DNA of 64,000 nt from Paraclostridium bifermentans (GTDB lineage: Bacteria > Bacillota > Clostridia > Peptostreptococcales > Peptostreptococcaceae): contig NZ_CP079737.1 in assembly GCF_019916025.1 (NCBI RefSeq), forward strand, positions 558,001 to 622,000. Reading direction: 5' to 3'. The first letter of the stretch is position 1, and each line of letters opens with the position of its first letter. The notes below the pieces were generated by a model. It was given only the letters and a program-made list of their open reading frames with translations, was not told the origin of the DNA and did no database searches. This document shows positions 34,365 through 49,552 of this stretch, piece after piece. Position numbers and translations under genes: made by a program.

Positions 34365-34510
34365 AATAAACCTCCTAATAAATAAATTCATAATTTAATT
34401 GTAGTTTAATATAATAAGTGAAATTTTTCAATATTAAATTATATAAATTTTAGAATAATATAGTAAAACAAGCATATATATTTTATAAAGAAAACATAGG
34501 AGGAATGATT

Positions 34511-34942
34511 ATGAAATATATAGGTTTATTAGCATCATCTGTATGCGTTGTAGTTGTGTTACTAATAAACTCATATTACAGTATCATAAACTTAGATATC
34601 CAAAAGATAAGTTCGTATGTAGTAGAAAGTAATATGATTCTAGAAGACATTATAACTAAAGAAGAGAATGTTTCAAAAGATAATAAAGAGTACATAGATA
34701 GACTTCAAAATTTAAAAAAATGTATAGAGGACACAAAGACATCTTTTTTTACAAGTAAATATAAAGATTATAGAATTAAATCAGTAGAAAGCATGATTGA
34801 AAGTATATCTAATGATAAGAAGAATAATGAACATTTAAATATGGTGAAAAAATATAATGAGCTATCAGAAAAAGAGCTGGATAGTATATTAGAGAAAAAT
34901 TTTTTCGAAGTAACATACTTATATACCCTAGCATATGAATAA
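34511..34942 (+). CDS. Hypothetical protein with one N-terminal membrane helix
   Basis: A 143-residue protein, not recognised. Residues 3-24 form one hydrophobic helix, and the rest is a charged, helical, probably coiled-coil domain (residues 30-135) rich in Lys, Glu, Ser and Asn. ATG 34511 follows ATAGGAGGA; ATG 34505 is too close to that site. It sits just upstream of the first small Trp/Cys-rich protein, separated by a short hairpin, and could be cotranscribed with it. A spore-related role is only a guess from context. Confidence 0.72.
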   Translation: MKYIGLLASSVCVVVVLLINSYYSIINLDIQKISSYVVESNMILEDIITKEENVSKDNKEYIDRLQNLKKCIEDTKTSFFTSKYKDYRIKSVESMIESISNDKKNNEHLNMVKKYNELSEKELDSILEKNFFEVTYLYTLAYE

Positions 34943-34988: not shown

Positions 34989-35195
34989 ATGTCAAAACTA
35001 GATAACCTTTTAAGAAGTTTTGGATGTGGATGCAATTCATCCTTTGGAGGTTCGAGTTTATTAATAATAGCTGTTGTTGTATTCTTATTATTATGTACTG
35101 ACCTACTTGACAACTTTTTCTGCGATGATAATTCATGGATATGGATAATACTTGTAATCCTTTTATTATTCAATTTTGATGATGGATGTTGCTAA
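34989..35195 (+). CDS. Small Cys/Trp-rich double-helix membrane protein, divergent member
   Basis: A 68-residue protein: Cys/Gly/Ser-rich head (SFGCGCNSSFGGSS), hydrophobic stretch SLLIIAVVVFLLLC, short acidic loop with FCDDNSWIW, a second hydrophobic stretch IILVILLLF, and an acidic Cys tail DDGCC. The layout matches the four related proteins downstream, but sequence identity is low, and the loop has SWIW where they have AWIP. The ribosome binding site is AAAGGGGGT. It is followed by its own terminator. Function unknown. Confidence 0.78.
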   Translation: MSKLDNLLRSFGCGCNSSFGGSSLLIIAVVVFLLLCTDLLDNFFCDDNSWIWIILVILLLFNFDDGCC

Positions 35196-35223
35196 AAAAA
35201 GCTCCGATAGGAGCTTTTTTTAT
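35194..35223 (+). terminator. Terminator after the first small Cys-rich gene
   Basis: AAAAAAAGCTCC pairs with GGAGCTTTTTT around GATA, directly after the stop. Confidence 0.92.
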
Positions 35224-35271
35224 ATTTAGTAATAAAAAAATAAATTTATATAAAAATAAAATTGTATAGTA

Positions 35272-35298
35272 ACCGTTTTTTTCAATTCCCATAGTATA
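35272..35298 (+). promoter_or_regulatory. Sigma-K-like promoter upstream of a small membrane protein gene
   Basis: AC at 35272-35273, 16 bases, then CATAGTATA at 35290-35298. This fits the AC-N16/17-CATAnnnTA pattern of late mother-cell promoters, about 100 bases before the coding start at 35401. The motif is short and AT-rich, so chance is possible. Confidence 0.45.
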
Positions 35299-35400
35299 AA
35301 TTAAGTGCATAATACATTTGAGATAAGACTTCTGAAATTTTAATATGGGTTAGCTAATAAGGGAATAAAATTTTAGCAATCCAAAAAACAGGGGGTATAT

Positions 35401-35610
35401 ATGGGCAGTTTAAGTAGAATATTTGGATCAGGTGGATTCTTTAGTGGAGGAGCATGGTGGATAATAGTATTATTCTTCCTATTCTTAGCTTTTCAAGAGT
35501 GCTTTGCAGAGATATGCATAACTGACTGGATTCCATTTTTAATATTACTTCTTATTGTTTGTTCATGTGGAATGGATGGATGCGGAGAGGACTTCGACTG
35601 TGGTTGTTAA
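35401..35610 (+). CDS. Small Trp/Cys-rich membrane protein, paralogue 1
   Basis: A 69-residue protein: glycine-rich head (IFGSGGFFSGG), conserved AWWIIVLFFLFLAF helix, the loop QECFAEICITDWIPF, a second helix LILLLIVC and a Cys/Asp tail CSCGMDGCGEDFDCGC. It shares the AWWIIVLFFLFLAF and WIPFLI blocks with the genes at 35778, 36005 and 36326. The ATG follows AGGGGGTATAT. It is flanked by its own promoter-like motif and terminator. Probably a spore-envelope or membrane microprotein; function unknown. Confidence 0.82.
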   Translation: MGSLSRIFGSGGFFSGGAWWIIVLFFLFLAFQECFAEICITDWIPFLILLLIVCSCGMDGCGEDFDCGC

Positions 35611-35621
35611 TTAAAAGGGGG

Positions 35622-35652
35622 AAGGCTACCTAATATTAGGTAGCCTTTTTAG
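35622..35652 (+). terminator. Terminator after paralogue 1
   Basis: AAGGCTACCTA pairs perfectly with TAGGTAGCCTT around ATAT, then a T-run. Confidence 0.92.
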
Positions 35653-35719
35653 TATTTAAAGTGATTAAAAAAATACTATTAAAAAATTATAAAATTATTA
35701 TCAAAAAGTAAAGGCTATG

Positions 35720-35728
35720 CATAGTATA
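35720..35728 (+). promoter_or_regulatory. Sigma-K/E-like -10 element
   Basis: CATAGTATA, identical to the element upstream of the previous paralogue, 50 bases before the start at 35778. No AC is found at the expected -35 position. Confidence 0.35.
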
Positions 35729-35777
35729 TGTTAAGAGCGAAAGCTCAAATAATTAATCATCAACAGGAGGTAACACA

Positions 35778-35951
35778 ATGTTAGATAGACTATTTGGTGA
35801 AGATGGATGTTTTGGAGGAGCATGGTGGATAATCGTACTATTCTTCTTATTCTTAGCATTTGGTGACTGCTGGGAAGAACTAGATATATGTGCATGGATA
35901 CCATTCTTAATAGTTTTATTAATATTATGTAGTTGTGGTGGATGCTTCTAG
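35778..35951 (+). CDS. Small Trp/Cys-rich membrane protein, paralogue 2
   Basis: A 57-residue protein starting MLDRLFGEDGCFGGAWWIIV, then LFFLFLAFGDCWEELDICAW, IPFLIVLLILCSCGGCF. Two hydrophobic helices are separated by an acidic loop with conserved Trp and Cys, and the tail is CSCGGCF. The ATG has a perfect ribosome binding site (CAGGAGGTAACACA). It is nearly identical to paralogue 3, and the two are 53 bases apart with no terminator between, so they are probably one transcript. Too short for many gene finders. Confidence 0.85.
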   Translation: MLDRLFGEDGCFGGAWWIIVLFFLFLAFGDCWEELDICAWIPFLIVLLILCSCGGCF

Positions 35952-36004
35952 TTCACTATAAAAAATTAAGACAATACTAGAAATAGACAACAGGAGGTAA
36001 CAAA

Positions 36005-36175
36005 ATGTTAGATAGATTATTTGGTGGAGAAGACTTTGGATGTGGATGGATAATCATAGTATTATTCTTCTTATTCTTAGCATTTGGAGATTGTTGGGCA
36101 GAACTAGATATATGTGCATGGATACCATTCTTAATAGTACTTTTAATCTTATGTAGCTGTGGAGAATGCTTCTAA
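36005..36175 (+). CDS. Small Trp/Cys-rich membrane protein, paralogue 3
   Basis: A 56-residue protein starting MLDRLFGGEDFGCGWIIIVL and ending LLILCSCGECF. From FFLFLAFGDCW to CSCG it matches paralogue 2 except for a few residues. The leader CAACAGGAGGTAACAAA is also duplicated, showing that this is a recent tandem gene duplication including the ribosome binding site. The product should be a small hairpin-like membrane protein with thiols at both ends of the second helix. Confidence 0.85.
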   Translation: MLDRLFGGEDFGCGWIIIVLFFLFLAFGDCWAELDICAWIPFLIVLLILCSCGECF

Positions 36176-36230
36176 CAATCGATTTAAATAACCAGTATAT
36201 AAATTATATATAGATAAAAAAATAAAAGTA

Positions 36231-36258
36231 ACCAATATACAGATAAATTCATATTATA
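36231..36258 (+). promoter_or_regulatory. Sigma-K-like promoter upstream of paralogue 4
   Basis: AC at 36231-36232, 17 bases, then CATATTATA at 36250-36258, 68 bases before the start at 36326. The spacing and the -10 fit the AC-N16/17-CATAnnnTA consensus. Confidence 0.45.
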
Positions 36259-36325
36259 TAAAATAGCTAGCTAATAAAAATTAACTAGCATTATAACTAA
36301 ATGAGTTCAATTAGGAGGTAACTTT

Positions 36326-36529
36326 ATGTTAGACAGATTTTTTGGTAACGATGGATGTTTCGGCGGAGGAGCATGGTGGATAATAGTATTATTCTTCCTA
36401 TTCTTAGCATTTGGAGAAACTTGGGCAGAAATAGACGTATGTGCATGGATACCATTCTTAATATTATTATTAATAGCTTGTTCATGTGGAGGATTCTTTG
36501 ATGGCGACGATGGATGTGGATGCTGCTAA
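36326..36529 (+). CDS. Small Trp/Cys-rich membrane protein, paralogue 4
   Basis: A 67-residue protein with the shared blocks MLDRFFG, GGAWWIIVLFFLFLAFGE, WAEIDVCAWIPFLILLLI and CSCG, and a longer tail FFDGDDGCGCC similar to the tail of paralogue 1. Ribosome binding site AGGAGGTAACTTT. It is the last member of the array before a strong terminator and ccpA. Function unknown; synteny with genes next to ccpA in C. difficile, some reported from spores as far as I recall, suggests a spore role. Confidence 0.85.
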   Translation: MLDRFFGNDGCFGGGAWWIIVLFFLFLAFGETWAEIDVCAWIPFLILLLIACSCGGFFDGDDGCGCC

Positions 36530-36548: not shown

Positions 36549-36588
36549 AAAAATAACACGCCAGTAATTAACTGGCGTGTTATTTTTT
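36549..36588 (+). terminator. Terminator after paralogue 4
   Basis: A 17-bp perfect stem (AAAAATAACACGCCAGT and complement) around TAATT, then a T-run. Confidence 0.95.
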
Positions 36589-36698: not shown

Positions 36699-37712
36699 AT
36701 GAAAACCAATATAACAATAAAAGATGTAGCTAAAAAAGCGGGCGTTTCTATATCTACAGTATCTAGAGTAATAAATGATTCGAAACCAGTTACGGATGAA
36801 GTTAAACAAAAAGTATTAGACGTAATAAAAGAGACTGGTTATGTTCCAAATCCGTTGGCTAGAAGTTTAGTGACAAAGAAAAGTCAACTAATAGGAGTTA
36901 TCGTACCAGAGGTATCAGATTCTTTTGTAAGTGAACTGGTAAACGGTATAGAGGAAGTTGCTAAAATGTATGATTATGATATATTATTAGCAAATACATA
37001 CTCTGATAAAGAACAAGAATTAAAGAGTTTAAATTTATTAAGAGCTAAACAAGTAGAAGGTATCGTTATGATGTCTTGGAAAGTAGATGAAGAGCATTTA
37101 GAATATATACAAAATTGTAGAATGCCTGCTGTATATGTAAGTAAAACTGCTAGAAACTACGATGTATATTCAGTAAGTATAAGTAATACTGATGCAACAT
37201 ATGATATGACTAAATATCTTATAGATAAGGGTCATAAAAATATATCTTTCATAATGACAAGTGAAGACGATACTGTTTTAGAATCTGAAAGATATTTAGG
37301 ATTTGAAAAAGCTATGAATGACAATAACCTAGAAATAGATAAATCTCTAGTAAAAAATGCTGGAACGACATATACGTACGGATATGATAGCATGAAAGAA
37401 ATACTAGATGAAGGTAAAAAGCCGGACGCTGTATTTGTTACAGGGGACGAAGCCGCTATAGGAGCTCTTAACGCAATATGTGATGCAGGATATAAAGTAC
37501 CTGAAGACATATCTGTTGCAGGATTTAATGATGCAAAAATAGCAGCTATGTACAGACCTAAATTAACTACAGTACACCAACCATTATATGATATGGGTGC
37601 TGTTGCAATAAGAATGGTAATAAAAATGATTGATAAGGAACCTTTAGAAAATAAAAAGGTTGAACTGCCATACAGAATAGTTGAAAGAGAAAGCGTAATA
37701 GATAGAAACTAA
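36699..37712 (+). CDS. ccpA: LacI-family regulator, probable catabolite control protein A
   Basis: A 337-residue regulator. The LacI helix-turn-helix is TIKDVAKKAGVSISTVSRVI at residues 5-25, with hinge helix NPLARSL near 53. The core is periplasmic-binding-protein-like. It has features shared with CcpA, such as GVIVPEVSDSFVSELVNGIE early and QPLYDMGAVAIRMVIKM late, but no full alignment was possible. CcpA binds cre sites with HPr-Ser-P to control carbon use. Ribosome binding site AAGGAGGA; terminators on both sides make it monocistronic. As I recall, C. difficile ccpA lies close to cotL and cdeC, which would fit this neighbourhood. Confidence 0.78.
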   Translation: MKTNITIKDVAKKAGVSISTVSRVINDSKPVTDEVKQKVLDVIKETGYVPNPLARSLVTKKSQLIGVIVPEVSDSFVSELVNGIEEVAKMYDYDILLANTYSDKEQELKSLNLLRAKQVEGIVMMSWKVDEEHLEYIQNCRMPAVYVSKTARNYDVYSVSISNTDATYDMTKYLIDKGHKNISFIMTSEDDTVLESERYLGFEKAMNDNNLEIDKSLVKNAGTTYTYGYDSMKEILDEGKKPDAVFVTGDEAAIGALNAICDAGYKVPEDISVAGFNDAKIAAMYRPKLTTVHQPLYDMGAVAIRMVIKMIDKEPLENKKVELPYRIVERESVIDRN

Positions 37713-37926: not shown

Positions 37927-39492
37927 ATGAATAAAATAATTATAGACGGTAGAGACCTTACTATAGAAGATGTAGTAAATGTATCTCGAAATGGATATAA
38001 AGTTGAGTTAGGGGAAGAAGCGTTAAAAAAAGTTAAAGTAGCAAGAGATTTAGTTGATAAATTTGTAGATGAACAAAAGGTTGTATATGGAATAACTACA
38101 GGATTTGGAAAATTTTCAGATGTAACCATATCAAAAGAAGAAACTCATAACTTGCAAAGAAATCTAATTATAAGTCATGCCTGTGGAGTAGGAAAACCTT
38201 TTGAAGAAGATATAGTAAGAGCTATAATGCTTCTGAGAGTAAATAATTTATCAAAAGGATACTCTGGCGTAAGAATTGAAACTTTGAATACATTAGTAAA
38301 TATGCTTAATAATAATGTCTGTCCAGTAATTCCAGAAAAAGGATCACTAGGAGCATCTGGAGACTTAGCTCCTTTATCACACATGGTACTTACTATGATA
38401 GGTGAGGGAGAAGCATTTTATGAAGGTGAGAAAATTCCATCAGTAGAAGCTATGAAACTCGCTGGAGTAGATGTTTTACCAGAGTTATCATCAAAAGAAG
38501 GTTTAGCTCTTATAAATGGAACGCAAGTTATGACTGCGGTAGGAGCACTTACAACGTATGATGCAATGAATTTATTAAAGCTTTCGGATGTTGCATTGTC
38601 GTTAACTATGGAGTCTCTAAATGGAATTACATGTGCTATGGATGAAAGAGTACATTTGGTAAGAGCTCATAGAGGTCAAATCAACACTGCAAGAAATATA
38701 CTAGAAATACTAAATGGAAGTGAGATGACAACAAAACAAGGTGATTTAAGAGTTCAAGATGCATATTCGATTAGATGTTCACCTCAAATCCATGGAGCAA
38801 GTAAAGATGCAATTGAATACGTAAAAAATAAAATTAATATAGAAATCAATTCAGTAACAGACAACCCAATAATATTCCCAGAACAAGAAGATGTAATATC
38901 AGGTGGAAACTTCCATGGACAACCAATGGCTTTAAGTTTTGACTTTTTGGGGATAGCTTTATCAGAAATAGCTAACGTATCAGAAAGAAGACTTGAAAGA
39001 CTAGTAAACCCAGCTTTAAGTAATGGATTACCAGCATTTTTAACTAAAAATGGTGGAGTTAATTCAGGATTTATGATAGTGCAATATAGTGCAGCATCAT
39101 TAGTTTCAGAAAATAAAGTATTAGCACATCCAGCGAGTGTAGATTCAATACCATCATCAGCAAATCAAGAAGACCATGTTTCTATGGGAACAATAGCAGC
39201 GAGAAAAGCAAAAGAAATAATGGAAAATACAAGAAATGTATTAGCTATGGAGTTATTAGCAGCAGCTCAGGCTATAGATTTAAGAGGTAAGAAAAAATTA
39301 GGCGTTGGTACAGATGCAGCATATAACGTTATAAGAAATCATACTAAATTTATAGATGAAGATTTAGTTATGTATAAAGAAATAAATAAATGTGAAGATA
39401 TTATCAAAGAAAACTTAGTAGTAGAAGCTGTAGAAAAAGCTTTAAACAATGAACTTTTACTAAATGAAGAGGTTGCGTTAAGTGAAATATAA
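37927..39492 (+). CDS. hutH: Histidine ammonia-lyase
   Basis: A 521-residue enzyme that deaminates L-histidine to trans-urocanate and ammonia. The self-forming MIO cofactor tripeptide Ala-Ser-Gly lies in GSLGASGDLAPLSHM near residue 143. Other family blocks are YGITTGFGKFSD near 60, QDAYSIRCSPQIHGA near 280 and NFHGQPMALSFDF near 330. First gene of the hut cluster, with ribosome binding site TAGGGGGA. Length is typical (about 510). Confidence 0.96.
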   Translation: MNKIIIDGRDLTIEDVVNVSRNGYKVELGEEALKKVKVARDLVDKFVDEQKVVYGITTGFGKFSDVTISKEETHNLQRNLIISHACGVGKPFEEDIVRAIMLLRVNNLSKGYSGVRIETLNTLVNMLNNNVCPVIPEKGSLGASGDLAPLSHMVLTMIGEGEAFYEGEKIPSVEAMKLAGVDVLPELSSKEGLALINGTQVMTAVGALTTYDAMNLLKLSDVALSLTMESLNGITCAMDERVHLVRAHRGQINTARNILEILNGSEMTTKQGDLRVQDAYSIRCSPQIHGASKDAIEYVKNKINIEINSVTDNPIIFPEQEDVISGGNFHGQPMALSFDFLGIALSEIANVSERRLERLVNPALSNGLPAFLTKNGGVNSGFMIVQYSAASLVSENKVLAHPASVDSIPSSANQEDHVSMGTIAARKAKEIMENTRNVLAMELLAAAQAIDLRGKKKLGVGTDAAYNVIRNHTKFIDEDLVMYKEINKCEDIIKENLVVEAVEKALNNELLLNEEVALSEI

Positions 39493-39515
39493 AACTGTAT
39501 AAGGGAGTAGATATT

Positions 39516-41561
39516 ATGGTTACTTTAGAAAAAGTTATGAATGTTACTAATGAAGAAATTAAAGATGCAATGACTATAAAATTGGATTATGTACCAAGTG
39601 AAATACCACAATTTATAGAAGGCATAAGAAGGGCTCCAAAAAGAGAGGCAAAATTATCTCAATCAGATATAAAATTAGCATTAAACAATGCATTAAGATA
39701 TATACCAGAAGAATATCATGAAAAATTAGCTCCAGAATTTTTAAATGAATTAATGACTACTGGAAGAATTTATGGATATAGATTCAGACCAGAAGGTAAT
39801 ATAAAAGCAAAAACAATAGATGAATATAAAGGGAAATGTACTGAAGCTAGAGCATTCCAAGTAATGATAGACAATAACTTGGATTTTGATATAGCTTTAT
39901 ATCCATATGAGTTAGTTACTTATGGTGAAACAGGCCAAGTATTCCAAAACTGGATGCAGTACAATTTGATTAAAAAATATTTAGAAGTAATGAACCAAGA
40001 TCAAACATTAGTAATACAATCAGGACATCCTGTTGGATTATTTAAATCTAAGCCAGATGCGCCTAGAGTAATAATAACTAATGGTCTGATGATAGGAATG
40101 TTTGATAATCAAGAGGACTGGAAAAGAGCAGCAGCTATAGGTGTATCTAATTATGGGCAAATGACAGCTGGAGGATGGATGTATATAGGACCACAAGGTA
40201 TTGTTCATGGTACTTACTCAACATTATTAAACGCTGGAAGGTTAATACTTGGAATACCAGAAAAAGATGATTTAGCTGGAAAACTATTTGTAACTTCAGG
40301 ACTTGGAGGAATGAGTGGAGCTCAAGGAAAAGCTGTAGAAATCGCTGGTGGAGTAGGTATAATAGCTGAAGTTGATTATTCAAGAATAGAAACTAGATAC
40401 ACTCAAGGCTGGGTAAGTAAAGTTGCTAAAACATGCGAAGAGGCATTTATTCTAGCTAAAGAATGTATGGATAAAAAAGAAGCTTGTGCAATAGCTTATA
40501 ATGGCAACATAGTGGACTTATTAGAATATGCAGTAGAAAAAGATATACATATAGATTTATTATCAGACCAAACATCTTGTCATGCCGTTTATGATGGAGG
40601 ATATTGCCCTCAAGGGATAACTTTTGAAGAAAGAACGAAACTTTTAGCTAATGATAAAGATAAGTTTGTACAATTAGTAGATGAAACTCTAAAGGCTCAC
40701 TTTAAAGTAATTCAAAAATTAACAAACAAAGGAAGTTACTTCTTTGATTATGGGAATAGTTTTATGAAAGCTATTTATGATGCTGGATGCCAAGAGATAT
40801 CTAAAAATGGAGTAGATGAAAAAGATGGATTTATATTCCCATCATATGTTGAAGATATATTAGGACCACAACTATTTGACTATGGATATGGGCCGTTTAG
40901 ATGGGTATGTTTAAGTGGAAAAAGAGAAGATTTAATAAAAACTGATAAAGCAGCTATGGATTGTATAGATCCAAATAGAAGATATCAAGATAGAGATAAC
41001 TGGATATGGATAAGAGATGCTGAGAAAAATGGTTTAGTTGTAGGATCTCAAGCTAGAATACTTTACCAAGATGCTATGGGAAGAACTAATATAGCTCTTA
41101 AGTTCAATGAAATGGTAAGAAAAGGAGAAATAGGACCTGTTATACTAGGTAGAGACCATCATGATGTGTCAGGAACAGATTCTCCATTTAGAGAAACATC
41201 TAATATAAAAGATGGAAGCAATATAATGGCTGATATGGCTACTCATTGCTTTGCGGGTAATGCAGCTAGAGGAATGAGTTTAATAGCTCTACATAATGGT
41301 GGTGGAGTAGGAATAGGAAAATCTATAAATGGCGGATTTGGAATGGTTCTTGATGGATCTCATAGAGTAGATGAAATATTAAGAACAGCTATGCCTTGGG
41401 ATGTTATGGGAGGAGTTGCTAGACGTGCTTGGGCTAGAAATGAAAACTCTATAACAACAGTTATGGAATACAATAAAATGTGTTATGGTCAAGACCATAT
41501 AACACTACCATATATAGTAGATGAAGATTTAATAAATCAAGTTATAGAGGCAAGTAAATAA
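39516..41561 (+). CDS. hutU: Urocanate hydratase
   Basis: A 681-residue NAD-dependent enzyme converting urocanate to imidazolone propionate. Motifs include SGHPVGLFKS, GGWMYIGPQGIVHGTY near residue 213, TSGLGGMSGAQGKA near 259 and GRDHHDVSGTDSPFRET near 547. It belongs to the longer urocanase form (about 660-680) rather than the 550-residue form. It starts 23 bases after hutH and is followed by a large hairpin. Confidence 0.96.
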   Translation: MVTLEKVMNVTNEEIKDAMTIKLDYVPSEIPQFIEGIRRAPKREAKLSQSDIKLALNNALRYIPEEYHEKLAPEFLNELMTTGRIYGYRFRPEGNIKAKTIDEYKGKCTEARAFQVMIDNNLDFDIALYPYELVTYGETGQVFQNWMQYNLIKKYLEVMNQDQTLVIQSGHPVGLFKSKPDAPRVIITNGLMIGMFDNQEDWKRAAAIGVSNYGQMTAGGWMYIGPQGIVHGTYSTLLNAGRLILGIPEKDDLAGKLFVTSGLGGMSGAQGKAVEIAGGVGIIAEVDYSRIETRYTQGWVSKVAKTCEEAFILAKECMDKKEACAIAYNGNIVDLLEYAVEKDIHIDLLSDQTSCHAVYDGGYCPQGITFEERTKLLANDKDKFVQLVDETLKAHFKVIQKLTNKGSYFFDYGNSFMKAIYDAGCQEISKNGVDEKDGFIFPSYVEDILGPQLFDYGYGPFRWVCLSGKREDLIKTDKAAMDCIDPNRRYQDRDNWIWIRDAEKNGLVVGSQARILYQDAMGRTNIALKFNEMVRKGEIGPVILGRDHHDVSGTDSPFRETSNIKDGSNIMADMATHCFAGNAARGMSLIALHNGGGVGIGKSINGGFGMVLDGSHRVDEILRTAMPWDVMGGVARRAWARNENSITTVMEYNKMCYGQDHITLPYIVDEDLINQVIEASK

Positions 41562-41569
41562 TAAGGTTA

Positions 41570-41618
41570 AAATTTTAAGTTACTGCGCTTATTGCGCTAG
41601 CGTAGTAACTTAAAATTT
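41570..41618 (+). other. 20-bp hairpin between hutU and ftcD
   Basis: AAATTTTAAGTTACTGCGCT (41570-41589) pairs with AGCGTAGTAACTTAAAATTT (41599-41618) with one G-U, around a 9-base loop. No T-run follows, so it is more likely an RNA-processing or stability element within the operon than a full terminator. Confidence 0.75.
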
Positions 41619-41664
41619 ATATATAACATAACTATTAAAATTAGAATATAGGGGGAGAATTAAT

Positions 41665-42558
41665 ATGGCTATAGTGCAATGTGTACCTAATTTTAGTGAA
41701 GGTAGGGATTTAGAAAAAATTGAAAAGATAGTATCACCACTTAGAGGAAAAGAGGGAGTTAAGCTTTTAAACTATGAAGCAGACAAGGATTATAATAGAG
41801 TAGTAGTTACTGTTATAGGTGAGCCTAAGGCAGTTAAAAATGCAGTGTTAGAGTCTATAGGGGTAGCTAAAGATTTAATAGATATGAACACTCATAAAGG
41901 ACAACACTCTAGATTTGGAGCTACAGATGTTTGCCCATTTATACCTATAAAGGGCATGACAATGGATGAAGCTGTAGAGCTTGCAAAAGAGTTAGGTGAA
42001 GATGTTGCAAAATTATATAATATACCTGTGTTTTTATATGAATGTGCAGCTTCAAAACCTGAAAGAGAAAATCTAGCTAAGGTAAGAAAAGGAGAGTATG
42101 AAGGATTAGATGCTAAATTTGAAGATCCTAATTGGGTACCTGATTTTGGACAAGCTAAAAAGCATCCGAATGCAGGTGCTATAGCTATAGGAGCTAGAAA
42201 ACCTTTGATAGCTTATAATATAAACTTGGATACTCCAAATATAGATATAGCATCAAGCATAGCAAAAACTATAAGACACTCAAGTGGAGGATATAAATTT
42301 ATAAAAGCTGGACCTGTAGAGATTCCAGAAAGAGGAATAACTCAGGTTACTATGAATTTAACTGATTATTCAAAAACTGCTATGTATAGAGCTTTTGAAG
42401 CTGTAAAAATGGAAGCAAAAAGATATGGAGTTAATGTAATGGGAAGTGAAATCGTAGGGCTTTGTCCTATGGAAGCTTTAGTTGACTGTGCTTCTTATTA
42501 TTTAGGACTTGAAAATTTCTCTTTAGATAAAGTTCTAGAGACTAGTTTAATGGAGTAG
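41665..42558 (+). CDS. ftcD: Glutamate formimidoyltransferase
   Basis: A 297-residue enzyme moving the formimino group of N-formimino-L-glutamate to tetrahydrofolate, releasing glutamate. Family motifs: CVPNFSEGRD at the N-terminus, HKGQHSRFGATDVCPF near residue 78, HPNAGAIAIGARKPLIAYN near 168 and EIVGLCPMEAL near 270. It is the single-domain form; the cyclodeaminase is a separate gene (fchA) in the same cluster. Ribosome binding site AGGGGGAGA. Confidence 0.94.
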   Translation: MAIVQCVPNFSEGRDLEKIEKIVSPLRGKEGVKLLNYEADKDYNRVVVTVIGEPKAVKNAVLESIGVAKDLIDMNTHKGQHSRFGATDVCPFIPIKGMTMDEAVELAKELGEDVAKLYNIPVFLYECAASKPERENLAKVRKGEYEGLDAKFEDPNWVPDFGQAKKHPNAGAIAIGARKPLIAYNINLDTPNIDIASSIAKTIRHSSGGYKFIKAGPVEIPERGITQVTMNLTDYSKTAMYRAFEAVKMEAKRYGVNVMGSEIVGLCPMEALVDCASYYLGLENFSLDKVLETSLME

Positions 42559-42563
42559 AATAT

Positions 42564-43850
42564 ATGGTTGCTGATCTAATTATTAAAAATATAGGAAAAC
42601 TAGCTACTATGAAAGGTGATGCACCTTTTATAGGAAAAGCGATGAATGATATAGAAATAATAGAAAATGCATATGTTGCAATAAAAGATGGTAGATTTTG
42701 CGATATAGGAATAGATGATGGTTATAAACATCTAATAAATCAAAATACAGAAATTAAAGATGCAGAAGGAAAATTGGTAACTCCAGGGCTTATAGATGCA
42801 CATACACATCTAGTTCATGGAGGAAGTAGAGAGAATGAATTTGCAAAAAAACTTGCAGGAGTGCCTTATTTAGAAATATTAAAAAGTGGAGGAGGAATAT
42901 TAAGTACAGTCAAAAGTACTAAAAGTTCTACGTTTAAAGAGTTATATGAAAAAGCATATAAAAGTTTAGATAGAATGTTAGAATTTGGAGTAACAACAGT
43001 AGAAGCAAAAAGTGGATATGGATTAGAAATAGATACAGAAATAAAACAATTAGAGGTAGCTAAAGCTTTAAGCGAAAAACACTCTATAGATTTAGTCAGT
43101 ACTTTTTTGGGCGCTCACGCGATTCCTGTTGAATATAAAGAAAATCCGGATAAATTTGTAGATATTTTGATAAATGATATGATGCCAAAGGTTAAGGATC
43201 TTGATTTAGCTGAATTTTGTGATGTATTTTGCGAGGATGCAGTATTTGATATAAAACAGACTAGAAAAATATTTAAAAGAGCAAAAGAACTAGGGTACAA
43301 GTTAAAAATACACGCGGATGAAATAGTTTCTTTAGGTGGAGCTGAGCTTTCAGCTGAAATGGGATGTATATCGGCTGATCACTTAATGGCAGCTAGTGAT
43401 AATGGGATAATGGCGATGGCTGATAAAGGTGTTATTGCTAATATTCTTCCAGGAACATCTTTTAACCTAAATAAAAATTACGCTGATGCTAGAAAAATGA
43501 TAAACTCTGGAGTTGCAGTATCCTTATCTAGCGATTATAATCCAGGAAGTTGTCCAAGTGAAAATCTTCAGTTTGTAATGCAGTTAGGTTGTCTAGGGCT
43601 TAAAATGACGCCTAATGAGGTTTTAAGTGGTGTTACAATAAACGCTGCATGTGCGATAGATAGAGATAGTGAAATTGGATCCATTGAAATAGGGAAAAAA
43701 GCTGACTTAGTAATATTTGACGCTCCAAATGTGGAGTACTTAATGTATCATTTTGGTATAAATCACACGCACTGTGTATATAAAAATGGAGAGCTTGTTG
43801 TAAATAATAAACAAATACTAAAAAAAGAAACTGAGAGTATTTTAAGTTAG
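42564..43850 (+). CDS. hutI: Imidazolonepropionase
   Basis: A 428-residue metal-dependent amidohydrolase opening imidazolone propionate to N-formimino-L-glutamate. Metal and substrate motifs are LIDAHTHLVHGGSRENEF near residue 77, EAKSGYGL near 150, FLGAHAIP near 185, KIHADEI near 248 and LSSDYNPGSCPSENLQF near 322. The start is ATG 42564, 5 bases after ftcD, so the two are translationally close. Confidence 0.95.
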   Translation: MVADLIIKNIGKLATMKGDAPFIGKAMNDIEIIENAYVAIKDGRFCDIGIDDGYKHLINQNTEIKDAEGKLVTPGLIDAHTHLVHGGSRENEFAKKLAGVPYLEILKSGGGILSTVKSTKSSTFKELYEKAYKSLDRMLEFGVTTVEAKSGYGLEIDTEIKQLEVAKALSEKHSIDLVSTFLGAHAIPVEYKENPDKFVDILINDMMPKVKDLDLAEFCDVFCEDAVFDIKQTRKIFKRAKELGYKLKIHADEIVSLGGAELSAEMGCISADHLMAASDNGIMAMADKGVIANILPGTSFNLNKNYADARKMINSGVAVSLSSDYNPGSCPSENLQFVMQLGCLGLKMTPNEVLSGVTINAACAIDRDSEIGSIEIGKKADLVIFDAPNVEYLMYHFGINHTHCVYKNGELVVNNKQILKKETESILS

Positions 43851-43884
43851 TTATTAGCAAAAATCTTTAAGGGAGGATTTTAAT

Positions 43885-44538
43885 ATGAGATTAGTTGAAA
43901 TGACGGTAGAAGATTTTTCAAAAGAAGTAGATTCAAACTCTCCTGCACCAGGGGGAGGATCTGTTTCAGCTCTAGCATCAAATATAGGTGTAAGTTTAGC
44001 TAGAATGATGGCCAACTTGAGTTTTGGAAAGAAAAAATATGAGAGCTTGGATGAAGATATACGAAAAGAATTTACAGAAAGATTTAATAAATTAGGAGAT
44101 ATAAGAGAAGAATTATTAATATTAGTAGATAAAGATACTGAATCATTTGATGCATATATGAAAGCATTAAAAATGCCTAAAGAAACAGATGAAGAAAAAA
44201 TTGTTAGAAAAGAAGCTATAAAATGTGCAACTGAATTTTCTATAGAGGTTCCTTTTAAAACAGCATCTATATCTTTAGAATCTTTAAAACTATTAAGTTT
44301 TATGGCTAAGTATGGAAATCAAAATGCAATTACGGATATAGGGGTAGGAACTCTTCTTATATACACAGGTATAGAAGGGGCTATACTTAATGTTAAAGTG
44401 AATTTACTTGGATTAGATGATGAGTCTATGGTAAGTGAATATACTAAAGATTGTAATACTATATTAAATAAAGCTTGTGAGATTAAAGATGAGATACTTG
44501 GAAATATACATAATGATTTAAATCCAATTAAAGCGTAA
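43885..44538 (+). CDS. fchA: Formiminotetrahydrofolate cyclodeaminase/methenyl-THF cyclohydrolase family
   Basis: A 217-residue helical protein starting MRLVEMTVEDFSKEVDSNSP with the glycine-rich APGGGSVSALASNIGVSLA motif. Members remove ammonia from 5-formimino-THF to give methenyl-THF or act as methenyl-THF cyclohydrolase. Beside ftcD, the cyclodeaminase role is the natural reading and completes histidine degradation into the one-carbon pool. Ribosome binding site AAGGGAGG. Last gene of the hut cluster. Confidence 0.9.
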   Translation: MRLVEMTVEDFSKEVDSNSPAPGGGSVSALASNIGVSLARMMANLSFGKKKYESLDEDIRKEFTERFNKLGDIREELLILVDKDTESFDAYMKALKMPKETDEEKIVRKEAIKCATEFSIEVPFKTASISLESLKLLSFMAKYGNQNAITDIGVGTLLIYTGIEGAILNVKVNLLGLDDESMVSEYTKDCNTILNKACEIKDEILGNIHNDLNPIKA

Positions 44539-44649: not shown

Positions 44650-45108
44650 TTATTCATCTTGTTTTTTTACTTTTTTTACAATCTTTTTCACTTTTTTACT
44701 TGGAGTGCTTTCTTCAGTTGTTTTTTCAGATTTACCAGATTTAGTTTTTTTCTTGCTATCAGATTTGCTTGAATTAGAATTCTTAGAGTTTTTAGAATCT
44801 TTACTTGGTTGATCTGAAGACTTAGACTTTTTAGCTTTTTTACTACTTATCTTATCTTTAGCTTCAGCAGCAGAAATTTTAGTCATTATACTATCTATTT
44901 TCTTTCTTTGATTTTCATCTAAAAAAGTTTTAAACTTTTCAACAACTTCTTCTTTTCCTTGAAGAGTTTTTCCTATTTTAACAAGCTCATCCATAAGTTC
45001 ATCTTCTGATTTATCTTTATAGCCATCTGCTATTTCTTCAATTTTGCCTTTATCAATATTTTTTTCCTTTGCGAATTTTTCCATTGCTTCTTTATCTATT
45101 TTTTTCAT
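44650..45108 (-). CDS. Lysine-rich protein, possible spore coat protein CotL
   Basis: A 152-residue protein with about 43 lysines (28%). Residues 1-85 are helical and mixed-charge (MKKIDKEAMEKFAKEKNIDK at the start). Residues 90-152 are a low-complexity Lys/Ser tail ending KKIVKKVKKQDE. As I recall, C. difficile CotL, a coat morphogenetic protein, is also a small protein of about 26% lysine encoded near ccpA and cdeC, so composition and neighbourhood both fit. Without alignment, the CotL name is tentative. Ribosome binding site AAAGAGGTG. Confidence 0.6.
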   Translation of the reverse strand: MKKIDKEAMEKFAKEKNIDKGKIEEIADGYKDKSEDELMDELVKIGKTLQGKEEVVEKFKTFLDENQRKKIDSIMTKISAAEAKDKISSKKAKKSKSSDQPSKDSKNSKNSNSSKSDSKKKTKSGKSEKTTEESTPSKKVKKIVKKVKKQDE

Positions 45109-45276: not shown

Positions 45277-45312
45277 TATATTAGGAGTAGTATATAGTAA
45301 GGGGTGACAAAG

Positions 45313-46203
45313 GTGAACAGTTTACTATTTATATTAGGGATGATAGCTTTAAGTAATGGAAATATATCATTGTCAGATAATAAAACTGGTAGTTTAGATA
45401 TAAATCAAGAAATGGGAAGTATGAGGTCAAAATTAAATAAGAAAAATAATAAAATCAAGTTAAAAAACAAATTTAGACCAAAAAATATCGAAGATGAAGA
45501 AATTGATGAAGAAGATGAAGACGAGTTTGTTGAGGAATCTGATTATATTGATTCAGTATCTAGTTTTAACATAAATGATCTTGATAAAGGAATGAAAATG
45601 TTAGAATTAAGTGATGATGATTTAGATAGAGGTTTAGAAATAATAACCAGAACTAAAAAGTATATGGATAAAGATGAACGAAAAGTATTAATAAAAATAG
45701 AGAGCGTTTTAGATTTAGTAAGAGGTATAAAAAAACTTAGTAGTGTTGATTTGGTAGATAACGAAGATGAATCAGATTTTTTTAGAAGCATGGAAGAAGA
45801 AGATAAAAAAAATATGATGATTAAAGAGATAATAGAAGTTTTTCCGGAAAGCAAAAAAGAATCTGTTGAGAGAGCTCTAGACATGAAAAAGAAAATTGAA
45901 CTATTTGCAGAATTGTTCTTGCCTGATGATATAGGAGAAGAAAATAGTTCTGGATTTAGTTTAAGTTCATTGGCTAGTATAAATAATATAGGAAGTTTAA
46001 ATAACTTGAAGCTTTTAGGTAATCTTTTAAGAAGTGATAATAAACAGAGCAATTATACAAAAAATAATAAATATAATCATGTAAATAAAGAAGAAAATGA
46101 GGAAGAAGAGGAAGAAAATGATTTTGAAGATATGTTAGATGAAGATGAAAACTATGAAACAGATGACTATATAGACTATGATTATGTAAGGATAGATAAA
46201 TAA
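45313..46203 (+). CDS. Acidic hypothetical protein, possible spore-surface protein
   Basis: A 296-residue protein of no recognised family. A short hydrophobic N-terminus (SLLFILGMIALSNGN) is followed by a basic patch (residues about 40-55), an acidic run (DEEIDEEDEDEFVEESDYID), a helical middle (80-200), a Ser/Leu/Asn-rich segment and a second very acidic Asp/Glu/Tyr tail. GTG 45313 after AAGGGGTGA is preferred over GTG 45304 inside that site. A sigma-K-like promoter and the CotL-like and CdeC-like neighbours suggest a late spore-layer protein; this is inference. Confidence 0.72.
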   Translation: MNSLLFILGMIALSNGNISLSDNKTGSLDINQEMGSMRSKLNKKNNKIKLKNKFRPKNIEDEEIDEEDEDEFVEESDYIDSVSSFNINDLDKGMKMLELSDDDLDRGLEIITRTKKYMDKDERKVLIKIESVLDLVRGIKKLSSVDLVDNEDESDFFRSMEEEDKKNMMIKEIIEVFPESKKESVERALDMKKKIELFAELFLPDDIGEENSSGFSLSSLASINNIGSLNNLKLLGNLLRSDNKQSNYTKNNKYNHVNKEENEEEEEENDFEDMLDEDENYETDDYIDYDYVRIDK

Positions 46204-46512: not shown

Positions 46513-47529
46513 TCAATTGTAAAAGTTGCCCAATATTCCGAAAGGGTCTTTGCTTACAAAAACATTAGTAGATATATAATCTTTATCAGGTAAATAATTA
46601 GATTTAAAACAAGCCCTTATAAACTTATCATTTATACTAAACTCATCCTCATATGCTTCACTCCAAGTACAACCTAAATCATCCGAATAACAAGTATATA
46701 AAATATTTTTATATACATAAGATATGAATATCGAAGAGTTATACTTTAATATGGATGGATATAGATATAAGGATCCATCAGTTATAAACTTATTAATATT
46801 TTCATCAAATGAATTGTTATTTAAATATCCGTTTAAATATTTAATACTATATTTAAAGTCATTACTTTCACAATATGTTATATGGTAAAAATTAAGTTTA
46901 TCTTTTAGAACAGATAGATATATTTTATTTTCTAAAGAATTAGTTATACATATAGGATCATTCCAACTTAGGTTACTTAAATTAAAATGTGTACAATAAA
47001 CTTGTGGAAATTCATTATTTTCCTTAAAGTAAAAAATTGTTGGAACTTTTTCATTAAAATAAATTGTAAAGTTATCTAAAATAGGTAAATTTATAAAATC
47101 AATTTTATTTTCAAACCACTGTTTACCATTATTATAATGATGGAATAAGATAGTAGTAGCACAATCTTTATTAGTTAGATAATAAAATATATGTATTGTG
47201 TTGTTTATAAATTTTATATATGGAAATGTTATAGTATAGTTTTCAGAATCATAATCTATTGTATGGAGAGTTAAAAATTTATTACTATCATTATTTAGTT
47301 TTAAAATGTTTATTTTAGAATCTGAAAAAATTCCATATACATTGTCATTTGAATCTATATCAAAATAATAACTAGAAAAATCAATAGGAACGAGTGTTAC
47401 ACTTTCAGAATGAACCATTGAATTACTATTTTTAAAATATTTATAGCTCAGTCCGTTTTCACTTTTTATAAGTATCATATCTTTATTAGATTTTCTTACA
47501 ACATATGAACATTCATTAAAAAATCCCAT
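46513..47529 (-). CDS. Beta-propeller-like hypothetical protein
   Basis: A 338-residue protein without signal peptide or membrane helix, built of repeating short beta-strand units rich in Tyr, Phe, Asn and Ser. One unit, YSDDLGCTWSEAYED near residue 292, is a BNR/sialidase-type Asp-box sequence, and related SWNDPI and QWFENKI units occur, so a propeller fold is likely. No catalytic signature. ATG 47529 follows AGGAGGTAGTT. It is divergent from the CdeC-like gene and resembles the 197-residue protein on the other side of it. Possibly a spore-surface protein; function unknown. Confidence 0.75.
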   Translation of the reverse strand: MGFFNECSYVVRKSNKDMILIKSENGLSYKYFKNSNSMVHSESVTLVPIDFSSYYFDIDSNDNVYGIFSDSKINILKLNNDSNKFLTLHTIDYDSENYTITFPYIKFINNTIHIFYYLTNKDCATTILFHHYNNGKQWFENKIDFINLPILDNFTIYFNEKVPTIFYFKENNEFPQVYCTHFNLSNLSWNDPICITNSLENKIYLSVLKDKLNFYHITYCESNDFKYSIKYLNGYLNNNSFDENINKFITDGSLYLYPSILKYNSSIFISYVYKNILYTCYSDDLGCTWSEAYEDEFSINDKFIRACFKSNYLPDKDYISTNVFVSKDPFGILGNFYN

Positions 47530-47711: not shown

Positions 47712-48878
47712 ATGAAGGATTTAATGAGAGCCAAAAAAGTAGTTAACAAAAGAGTAATACAGCCTAATCAAAATATAGATTCAGGAAGAAGCTATATAGA
47801 AACGAATGAAATAGAAGAGGAGCTAAGAGGATGCAAGCCACAATGCCATCCATATGTACAATGTGATTGTAATAATGATTGCAATAATGATTGCAACCAT
47901 CATAATCATAATTGTGGATGTAATCCAGGATGCTGTGATTGCAAAGATGAAGAAGATTGTACAGACAATTGCTTCCCAAACCCTTGTCCAGAAGAGTGTG
48001 CTCATCCTTTAGTACCACCAAAATTTCCAATATCACAAGCAGCATTGTTTCCAATAGAAACTAATAGAATATTTGATACTATAATGTTTAGAGTATTTAC
48101 AGATGGTAAAATGGCAAATGGAGAAGATTTAAACTTTGACTATGAATTAGGTAGTTTACGTGGACCATTGCCAAATGCTACTCAAACTAATGCTACTATA
48201 GAGAAAGTTTGTATAAATTATTCAAGTATAAGAATAAATCCAGGAACAACATCTTTAGAGAATTTAAGCATTGATAAAGCTAATAAACATGGTAGAAGAT
48301 GTGAAACAATATTTGAATATGATGTGTGTGGTCAATTAAATAGATGCTGCAACGAGAAGTGTTTGGGACAAAATGTAGTTTATAAACAAAAAGGATTAAA
48401 TGTTATAGTTAAAGATTTAGAAATAGAATTAATAGGTAGATTTGGATGTTCTGAATTTACTGCTATAGCTACACCAGTTGAGAAGTGCCATAAAGGCGAT
48501 GAATCAAATGAGGTAGTATTCTTTTTTAACACTTTATCAAGTGATATAGTAGTTCCAGCAGATGGAAGAGGTTTTACGCTAAGACAAGATTTCCAAACTC
48601 AACTAACAGTTGACTGCATAGGAAAAGCAATAATAACTCAACACATAGTAAACAATAAACCTTGCTTTGAGTTACAAATTCCTAATGGAATAGACTTAGT
48701 ATTATGCTTACAAAATATAGTTAGTGTATTAATAGAAGAACAAATAGTAGTTTTAGGTGGACCTACAAGAATAAAACCTAGATTAGTAGACACATTTGGT
48801 AATGTTTGCGATTTCTCTCAATTCAATGGAGATTGTGAAGAAAAACATGATCACTGCCATAAAGATAATAAATGCTAA
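47712..48878 (+). CDS. cdeC: Cysteine-rich exosporium protein, CdeC-like
   Basis: A 388-residue protein with about 30 cysteines. A charged head (residues 1-40, ending EIEEELRGCK) is followed by a Cys/Asn/His/Asp low-complexity segment (about 40-100, with CDCNNDCNNDC and PNPCPEEC), a conserved-looking beta-rich core (about 105-370, with PISQAALFPIETNRIFDTI) and a Cys/His tail. Size, architecture and location near ccpA fit CdeC, the C. difficile exosporium morphogen, which is about 405 residues by my recollection. Ribosome binding site GGGAGG. No signal peptide, as expected for a mother-cell product. Confidence 0.72.
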   Translation: MKDLMRAKKVVNKRVIQPNQNIDSGRSYIETNEIEEELRGCKPQCHPYVQCDCNNDCNNDCNHHNHNCGCNPGCCDCKDEEDCTDNCFPNPCPEECAHPLVPPKFPISQAALFPIETNRIFDTIMFRVFTDGKMANGEDLNFDYELGSLRGPLPNATQTNATIEKVCINYSSIRINPGTTSLENLSIDKANKHGRRCETIFEYDVCGQLNRCCNEKCLGQNVVYKQKGLNVIVKDLEIELIGRFGCSEFTAIATPVEKCHKGDESNEVVFFFNTLSSDIVVPADGRGFTLRQDFQTQLTVDCIGKAIITQHIVNNKPCFELQIPNGIDLVLCLQNIVSVLIEEQIVVLGGPTRIKPRLVDTFGNVCDFSQFNGDCEEKHDHCHKDNKC

Positions 48879-48896
48879 TTAAAAAATATATACACT

Positions 48897-48953
48897 AATA
48901 TTGAAAATAAAAAGAGCATTGATAAAATCAATGCTCTTTTTATTTTCAATATT
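48897..48953. terminator. Perfect 57-base palindromic bidirectional terminator
   Basis: Two 27-base arms with no mismatch surround AAA. The right arm overlaps the stop codon of the convergent minus-strand gene. It contains GAGCATTGAT/ATCAATGCTC at its centre and A/T-rich outer arms. Confidence 0.95.
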
Positions 48954-49539
48954 TTATAGAATCACAGTACTTAAATAAAATATTACTAGTTTTTACATTT
49001 GAAAAGTATGACCAGCGTTTTTCAGTATCATTGTAAACCATGGACTCTAAATTTATTTTATTTTTTGATTTGACATAATAGGAGCATATAATATGGTCAT
49101 TTGATAAGTTAATAGTATAAAGAGGGAGCTTACTTTTAAAAGCATTTCTAATATCGAATTCTAAAAGTTCATTATTATAAAAATTATAGTTTAAATGATA
49201 TATATTGTGATAATGCTTGTTTAGAGACTTAGAAAAAAATATATTTATAGAATTATTCAATAAGTACATTGAAAGCTTACTAATTTTTTTTGAACTAATA
49301 TTTAACTTAAATGATGAAATCAGATTCAAAGAGCCAGTATTGTAAGTGTAGTAATAGAAGCAGTTTTTTAAGTCTATAAAACAAATGTGGATGTCATCAT
49401 ATTTATCGATTAACGCTGAGTATAAATAAACGTTATTTGAAATAGTTTCAATCTTATTTGTATGATTCTTTATGTATAAACAATTATTTTTATTAAAAAT
49501 AGATAAAGATAAATTCGCATCTTTATTTAGAATAATCAT
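48946..49539 (-). CDS. Beta-strand-rich hypothetical protein, propeller-like
   Basis: A 197-residue protein starting MIILNKDANLSLSIFNKNNC. It shows short repeating beta units rich in Tyr, Asn, Ser and Ile (for example YDDIHICFIDLKNCFYYYTY) similar in style to the 338-residue protein at 46513, but shorter, about half a propeller. GTG 49551 overlaps the ribosome binding site AAGGTGG; ATG 49539 is preferred. It lies 13 bases after the SpoVB-like gene in the same operon. Function unknown; spore context. Confidence 0.7.
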   Translation of the reverse strand: MIILNKDANLSLSIFNKNNCLYIKNHTNKIETISNNVYLYSALIDKYDDIHICFIDLKNCFYYYTYNTGSLNLISSFKLNISSKKISKLSMYLLNNSINIFFSKSLNKHYHNIYHLNYNFYNNELLEFDIRNAFKSKLPLYTINLSNDHIICSYYVKSKNKINLESMVYNDTEKRWSYFSNVKTSNILFKYCDSIKY

Positions 49540-49552
49540 AAAATTAACCACC

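Follow-up and report, generated by a model that had tools for sequence, protein, structure and literature searches.

Upstream of the ccpA orthologue in a 64,000-nucleotide stretch of the Paraclostridium bifermentans genome (contig NZ_CP079737.1, positions 558,001-622,000; here called the window, in whose own coordinates all features are given) lies a tandem array of five small genes, p0 to p4, and it raises the question of what their short, Trp- and Cys-rich products do. A first-pass annotation made from the sequence had pictured two-helix membrane proteins, cross-linked through disulfides or metal in a membrane-bound layer. We find that a sporulation role of the array family is well supported by its distribution, its promoter sites, and its gene cluster, and we think it reasonably likely that the array encodes late-sporulation structural proteins of the spore envelope. 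Spores of Clostridioides difficile and its relatives have a different envelope from those of Bacillus. A family that occurs in all but one of the SpoIVA-positive genomes among 71 searched, lies in the cotL/cdeC cluster, does not require cdeC, and has no matching Pfam or NCBIfam model bears on a possible part of small hydrophobic hairpins in building or anchoring the coat.

The array and its proteins

All five genes are on the forward strand and begin exactly where the first-pass annotation had placed them: p0, the divergent member (34989-35195, 68 amino acids), p1 (35401-35610, 69 amino acids), p2 (35778-35951, 57 amino acids), p3 (36005-36175, 56 amino acids), and p4 (36326-36529, 67 amino acids). 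The products of p1 and p4 are hairpin-like with a Cys-rich tail; those of p2 and p3, the two short members already singled out at 56-57 residues, are likewise hairpin-like, p3 being a lineage-specific copy of p2. A purine-rich stretch resembling a ribosome-binding site (RBS) precedes each gene, and each of the five proteins comprises a pair of short hydrophobic segments along with an acidic loop and a tail rich in Cys. As had been proposed, p1-p4 are paralogues with common blocks: p1, p2, and p3 are 70, 82, and 73% identical to p4, and all four carry IIVLFFLFLAF, WIPFLI, and CSCG unchanged. Lys and Arg are very scarce in p1-p4, which tryptic surveys may therefore overlook. A search of the 3.57-Mb genome with p4 at E ≤ 1 returned only the places of p1-p4, its own among them (E 5.2e-42 to 1.8e-19). 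For none of p0-p4 did a Pfam or NCBIfam model score above its cut-off.

Among 131 distinct proteins of the p1-p4 type (median length, 63 residues), Cys makes up 9.8% and Trp 5.8% of residues, which bears out the richness in both that had been noted. The first hydrophobic run spans 13 or 14 residues in 126 of them, and the second, counted from W-I-P on, 14 or 15 residues in 115. The 13 residues before WIPF include three to six acidic residues in every protein and no basic residue in 124, and the net charge is between -4 and -10. From the end of the second segment onward there are at least two Cys in all 131 proteins, and CC or C-x-C occurs within the last eight residues of 116. Cys number varies from 2 to 10, and only one position class is filled throughout, by a Cys where the second segment ends. 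An AlphaFold2 model based on 94 sequences has helices at residues 17-28 and 38-54, in keeping with the suggested two-helix shape, with low confidence (pLDDT 64, pTM 0.41). The Trp that opens helix 1 and the W-I-P that opens helix 2 would be placed as at membrane interfaces, and the single Arg near the N terminus of p4 would put both ends of the protein on the mother-cell side, with the acidic loop across the membrane. Neither the best match among solved structures (E 0.28, a 31-residue chain) nor the one Foldseek match (E 10) is meaningful.

These genes are more than chance ORFs, because substitutions between near species are mostly synonymous and relatives are found at 63 loci of other genomes. 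Among 30 pairwise comparisons of p0-p4 between the window and three relatives, dN/dS was below 0.5 in 28, undefined in one, and 1.56 in one; values for ccpA in the same genomes were 0.016-0.040. By these ratios the array evolves faster than ccpA, but as protein-coding genes do. The value of 1.56 belongs to the p4 orthologues of loci L009 and L018 (6001-6195), with 2.5 synonymous and 15.5 nonsynonymous changes, and ccpA of the same pair gave 0.016. The sites are few, and the divergence perhaps reflects gene conversion or diversification of p4.

The status of p0 is the weakest point of this description. The p4 query did not retrieve it from the whole genome at E ≤ 1, and the p1-p4 profile did not match the window's own p0 at E 1e-3 or better. 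p0-type proteins from 12 other loci match that profile at E 2e-6 to 8e-4, and a profile-profile comparison of p0-type with p1-p4 proteins gave a probability of 96.2 and an E value of 2e-9, scores that hydrophobic profiles can inflate. An N-terminal R-F-F-G shared by most p0-type proteins, together with the acidic loop and the C-terminal Cys, favors true kinship. p0 is thus probably a remote homologue of p1-p4 and, as had been proposed for the gene at 34989, a divergent fifth member. A predicted structure of p0 (pLDDT 59, four helical pieces) was set aside and not used.

Distribution of the family

Run against genome contigs, the four-member alignment returned 112 pattern stretches; 65 were confirmed, and these make up 63 distinct loci. 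Record titles name genera taken as Peptostreptococcaceae, Tepidibacter, Alkalithermobacter, "Clostridium", and uncultured isolates; in a tree of 145 rows and 64 columns with many open forks, proteins of the last two groups fall among members from the first three. The search across Peptostreptococcaceae that had been advised was done on whole genomes and found the array family in 53 of 71 genomes, and 18 of 23 genera, of the window's family. An order-wide sample of 297 genomes had 53 positives, all from this family, and none among the 226 others.

Presence of the array family tracks SpoIVA (PF09547), which we detected in 54 of the same 71 genomes. The array family is present in 53 of the 54 SpoIVA-positive genomes and in none of the 17 SpoIVA-negative ones (Fisher p 1.7e-15, relatedness ignored), and the genera without either (g8, g10, g11, g12, g13) may represent few losses. 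The sole SpoIVA-positive genome without the family, G025, is 84% complete. G030, from the window's genus and 75% complete, has neither the family nor SpoIVA, perhaps through incompleteness. Homologues found only in nonsporulating lineages had been named as the outcome that would speak against a spore function; the distribution is the opposite.

With a larger profile (A4), 29 of 391 genomes sampled from the class matched at E ≤ 0.05. Clear members were found in three (G000, G010, G051), and the other 26 gave one partial match each (best E 3.3e-4), one of these genomes (G038) belonging to the window's family. Loci were fetched for 7 of the 26 partial matches (L104-L110), and the five of these that were inspected (L104, L105, L108, L109, and L110) contain no family-like ORF. 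Within the inspected loci, there is no clear array-family member beyond the window's family in the class sample.

Sigma-K-type promoter sites

Sigma-K-type sites on the forward strand precede p1 (AC-N16-CATAGTATA, 35272-35298, 102 nt before the ATG) and p4 (AC-N17-CATATTATA, 36231-36258, 67 nt before the ATG). Both are full AC-N16/17-CATANNNTA forms of the strict motif, defined as AC-N15-17-CATANNNTA, which also occurs before the CD1063-like gene that precedes the array (34370-34397). About 50 nt before p2 there is a -10-like CATAGTATA without the AC -35 element (35720-35728, forward strand). In C. difficile, the CD1063.2-type gene also has this box, 48 nt upstream, and also lacks an AC at the corresponding distance, although a sigma-K promoter has been reported for it. 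Upstream of p0 we observed only a weaker box, CATATGAATA, at about 49 nt. No sigma-K-type site is present in the 53-nt gap between p2 and p3, so p3 is probably co-transcribed with p2.

Across the family, we counted the strict motif in the 117 nonidentical upstream regions that offer 100 nt or more of space, after regions truncated by a locus end had been dropped. It is present in 71, whereas 200 first-order Markov resamplings averaged 2.2 and never exceeded 8; among long ORFs (at least 150 residues) of the same loci and the window, it precedes 24 of 433. When start calls were set slightly differently, the recount was 69 of 114 on the forward versus 2 of 114 on the reverse strand, and 67 of these 69 sites lie 32-110 nt before the ATG; the upstream regions are homologous, and the counts are therefore not independent. 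The motif precedes 4 of 32 closely spaced family genes. A scan for sigma-70 sites gave 21, with 16.8 expected. Judged by sequence sites, the family would belong among genes with sigma-K promoters.

Orthologues in C. difficile

CcpA is CD1064 in C. difficile (PMC3865298). The C. difficile locus L055 has, between CD1063 and ccpA, three small ORFs on the same strand (leaving aside a 40-residue TTG frame), of which one is of the p0 type and two are of the p1-p4 type; the last two are 34 nt apart, which fits the published CD1063.2-CD1063.3 operon. By gene order, we assign CD1063.1-.3 (also CD1063A-C) as the orthologues of the array, and p0 corresponds to CD1063.1 by position as well as by sequence (64% over the best segment). 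The orthologous place between CD1063 and ccpA, the strand, and the combination of p0-type and p1-p4-type members are thus shared. The C. difficile loci differ in having two p1-p4-type copies where the window has four, and no p1-type copy was seen in them.

Sigma-K expression of the C. difficile orthologues is already in print. The ratios reported in PMC3789822 are 0.17 in a sigE and 0.21 in a sigK mutant for CD1063.1, and 0.01 and 0.04, respectively, for CD1063.2 and CD1063.3. The same study assigns sigma-K promoters to CD1063.1 and to the CD1063.2-.3 operon, marks CD1063.1 as spore-detected, and terms it and four other proteins most likely spore coat proteins; CD1063 itself is sigma-E dependent (PMC3789822). 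A faecal-water study places the genes CD1063A-CD1067 under sigma-E or sigma-K (PMC6232153). A 2022 review names seven C. difficile morphogenetic proteins, and "1063" does not occur in it (PMC9542656). We found no functional study of array-family genes in the literature covered, most subscription papers and supplements being outside that scope. The earlier statement that no assigned function was known therefore holds as regards tested functions, but sigma-K control of the C. difficile orthologues has been published, and CD1063.1 is described in print as a likely spore coat protein. The sporulation idea of the first-pass annotation is supported by the co-occurrence with SpoIVA, the sigma-K dependence of these orthologues, and the cotL/cdeC cluster. 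CDR20291_0921 and CDR20291_0922, listed beside coat and exosporium genes in a HexR table (PMC10128005), were not tied to the array family and not used.

Two known systems invite comparison. The tiny YjcZ-type sporulation proteins of Bacillus (TIGR01732) resemble the array proteins in a Gly-rich start and one hydrophobic run; kinship is unsupported, because at E ≤ 10 TIGR01732 (cut-off, 21.35 bits) matched neither the array proteins nor anything else in the genome that contains the window. Like the array proteins, CdeC and CdeM, whose genes we take to be CD1067 and CD1581, are Cys-rich, and cdeC belongs to the same cluster. CD1067 and CD1581 are in the sigma-K table (PMC3789822). CdeC and CdeM are far larger, at 44.7 and 19.1 kDa (PMC9542656), and CdeC was undetected in 8 of the 53 array-bearing genomes.

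Function of the array

In the reading that we prefer, that of late-sporulation structural proteins, p0-p4 would be transcribed in the mother cell under sigma-K, as published for C. difficile and as the promoter sites here suggest, and their products would join the spore envelope, the p0-type C. difficile member having been reported from spores. Each protein is most likely a short, hydrophobic hairpin of helices whose turn carries negative charge; it could sit within the outer forespore membrane or be packed in the inner coat. The Cys-rich tail would lie on the coat side, where it could be disulfide-linked to its neighbors or to other Cys-rich coat proteins after mother-cell lysis, and several similar copies may provide dosage and slightly different tails. 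Membrane seating and disulfide linkage, both part of the first-pass annotation, are putative in our reading as well, as is the spore layer.

Several observations weigh against this reading. The strict sigma-K motif is absent before p0 and p2 in the window and from all eight C. difficile regions examined, and at a second locus with a single family copy, described below, it is found in only 5 of 24 cases and missing in 19. CD1063.2 and CD1063.3, which stand closest to p1-p4, carry no mark for spore detection in PMC3789822, and CD1063A-C are filed under sigma-E rather than sigma-K in PMC6232153. A WalR study describes CD630_10631 as a membrane protein that changed with one WalR variant only (PMC9210968), and its expression may not be strictly bound to sporulation. 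At 13-15 residues, the hydrophobic runs are short if they are to cross a whole bilayer, and the AlphaFold2 model is of low confidence.

The proteins might instead be regulators, that is, small membrane proteins that guide coat or cortex assembly in the manner, presumably, of SpoVM or CmpA, and are not bulk material. The W-I-P-F core, invariant in 94 aligned proteins, would suit such a role, as would a place before ccpA that is kept as far as Tepidibacter and Alkalithermobacter and the neighbors cotL and cdeC, which are morphogenetic (PMC9542656). Multiple similar copies, variable tails, and very strong sigma-K dependence better fit structural proteins of a dosage type, however, and sigma-K would be late for an organizer of the basement layer; we consider a regulatory role unlikely. 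Holin-like or membrane-permeabilizing peptides, made late under sigma-K and aiding spore release by mother-cell lysis, would likewise be small, have two short hydrophobic segments, and occur in several copies, and the orthologues are sigma-K controlled, the sigma-K regulon as a whole having been linked to mother-cell lysis (PMC3789822). We give this explanation little credence: no holin model exceeded its cut-off (Holin-X on p1, 11.5 bits against 28.4), no PHROG matched the four paralogues below E 0.048, the segments are short, the Cys-rich tails are left unexplained, and the p0 orthologue is reported from spores.

Two further alternatives turn on the Cys tails. The CC or C-x-C near the C terminus of 116 of the 131 proteins could mark membrane proteins that bind metal, and load it into the coat, rather than being disulfide-linked; a Cys number of 2 to 10 with a single universal position class is unlike a dedicated metal site and makes this quite improbable. 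There is also a small chance of a lineage-specific proteolipid layer, in which dense hairpins in the outer forespore membrane would have their tails zipped together and to the coat at mother-cell lysis, forming a membrane-bound lattice that fastens the coat, rather than mainly SpoVM doing so; such a layer, if real, could predate CdeC in the lineage. Least credible, and already disfavored, are type I toxins in tandem or selfish small peptides of some other hydrophobic kind. The genes are indeed small, hydrophobic, tandem, and duplicated, yet no toxin model exceeded its cut-off (Ibs_toxin, on p0 only, 7.2 bits against 27), and the five Rfam matches between 33500 and 37800 were all below gathering scores, a search whose scope does not extend to undescribed antisense RNAs. 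Moreover, the family is confined to SpoIVA-positive genomes of one family, is syntenic across genera, and has sigma-K-type sites and mostly low dN/dS.

Copy number and duplication

p2 and p3 have 145 of 171 aligned coding bases in common. The first-pass annotation had them duplicated together with their leader. That p3 is a recent copy of p2 holds, but upstream only the RBS stretch is shared: 34 of 60 bases agree, including one identical 15-base run around the RBS, and p4 carries much of the same stretch. No second promoter was copied along with p3. In the tree, a clade of eight rows (support 99/91) has the p3 copies nested within those of p2; it comprises only the window, two Paraclostridium records, and [Eubacterium] tenue, nearest rows that point to Paraclostridium or close kin as the source of the window. 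The p1-type copies form one clade of 24 rows from several genera (support 99/91).

A terminator-like hairpin follows p0 (35193-35222, forward strand). A near-perfect inverted repeat 3' of p4 (36549-36587) is also terminator-like; its strand is undefined, as the scan called the reverse strand and the forward reading also ends with a T run.

Gene neighborhood

The array precedes the ccpA orthologue, as had been noted (36699-37712, forward strand, 80% identity to the C. difficile protein; 329.6 bits against NCBIfam TIGR01481, below its cut-off of 442). Upstream of p0 lies the CD1063 orthologue (34505-34942, forward strand), which encodes 145 residues with an N-terminal hydrophobic segment and is 49% identical to the C. 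difficile protein in the same place. Farther downstream are orthologues of the coat morphogenetic gene cotL (44650-45108, reverse strand, 71% over the best segment), CD1066 (45304-46203, forward strand, 55% over the best segment), and cdeC, for a cysteine-rich exosporium protein (47712-48878, forward strand, 48% over the best segment); we take the C. difficile reference ORFs to be CD1065 for cotL and CD1067 for cdeC. The order in L055 is rluD-like, NA37, acpP (opposite strand), CD1063, CD1063.1 (p0), array, ccpA, cotL (opposite strand), CD1066, and cdeC, where NA37 and ccpA are named from analysis results and rluD-like and acpP are our presumed names. This entire gene set is present in the window, with cotL, CD1066, and cdeC displaced from ccpA by ORFs at 37927-44538, presumably histidine-utilization genes. 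The cluster so split in the window is contiguous in C. difficile (L055) and in Romboutsia timonensis (L012). Two opposite-strand ORFs of unassigned kind flank cdeC in the window (46513-47529 and 48946-49551, both reverse).

ccpA is near array-family genes at 29 of the 63 loci, together with cotL at 11 and cdeC at 9, counts that are limited by the many loci that stop at contig ends. Six loci of Tepidibacter and Alkalithermobacter (L063-L066, L068, L069) have three to five copies, still before ccpA, and we take this place to be ancestral because the array is kept there. Conservation is not complete: the Terrisporobacter loci L021 and L022 have the array and a p0-like gene with no ccpA within about 6 kb, and neither 12-kb locus has a ccpA, rluD-like, or NA37 match. 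In Asaccharospora irregularis (L010, 4012-9318), the three array genes are on the strand opposite to that of ccpA, p0, and CD1063, which looks like an in-place inversion of the array alone. A distance of about 4.6-4.9 kb separates p0 from the array in Intestinibacter bartlettii and two "Clostridium" records (L019, L025, L029, L054).

Among the 71 genomes, CotL was matched in 51, with weak partial matches in g2, g21, and g22, and CdeC in 45. A single-sequence search at E ≤ 0.001 gave no CdeC match in eight of the 53 array-bearing genomes (G001, G002, G059-G064); the array, then, can do without CdeC.

A lone family copy with the same hairpin and tail as in the array occupies a different place, near a DUF1846-like gene, at 24 of the 63 loci (L042, 5959-6147; L013, L030, L034-L036, L038, L040, L041, L043-L046, L048-L051, L053, L058, L060-L062, L067, L070). 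The p4 search at E ≤ 1 found no such copy in the window's genome. From the gene order, with what we take to be DUF1846-, dinB-, and opuCA-like neighbors, this paralogue is probably CD0896 of C. difficile. CD0896 has ratios of 0.05 (sigE) and 0.02 (sigK) and a sigma-K promoter in PMC3789822. The copy in L070 (5845-6102), from a Clostridioides metagenome-assembled genome, is a divergent and longer member of 86 residues with an extended Gly-rich N terminus.

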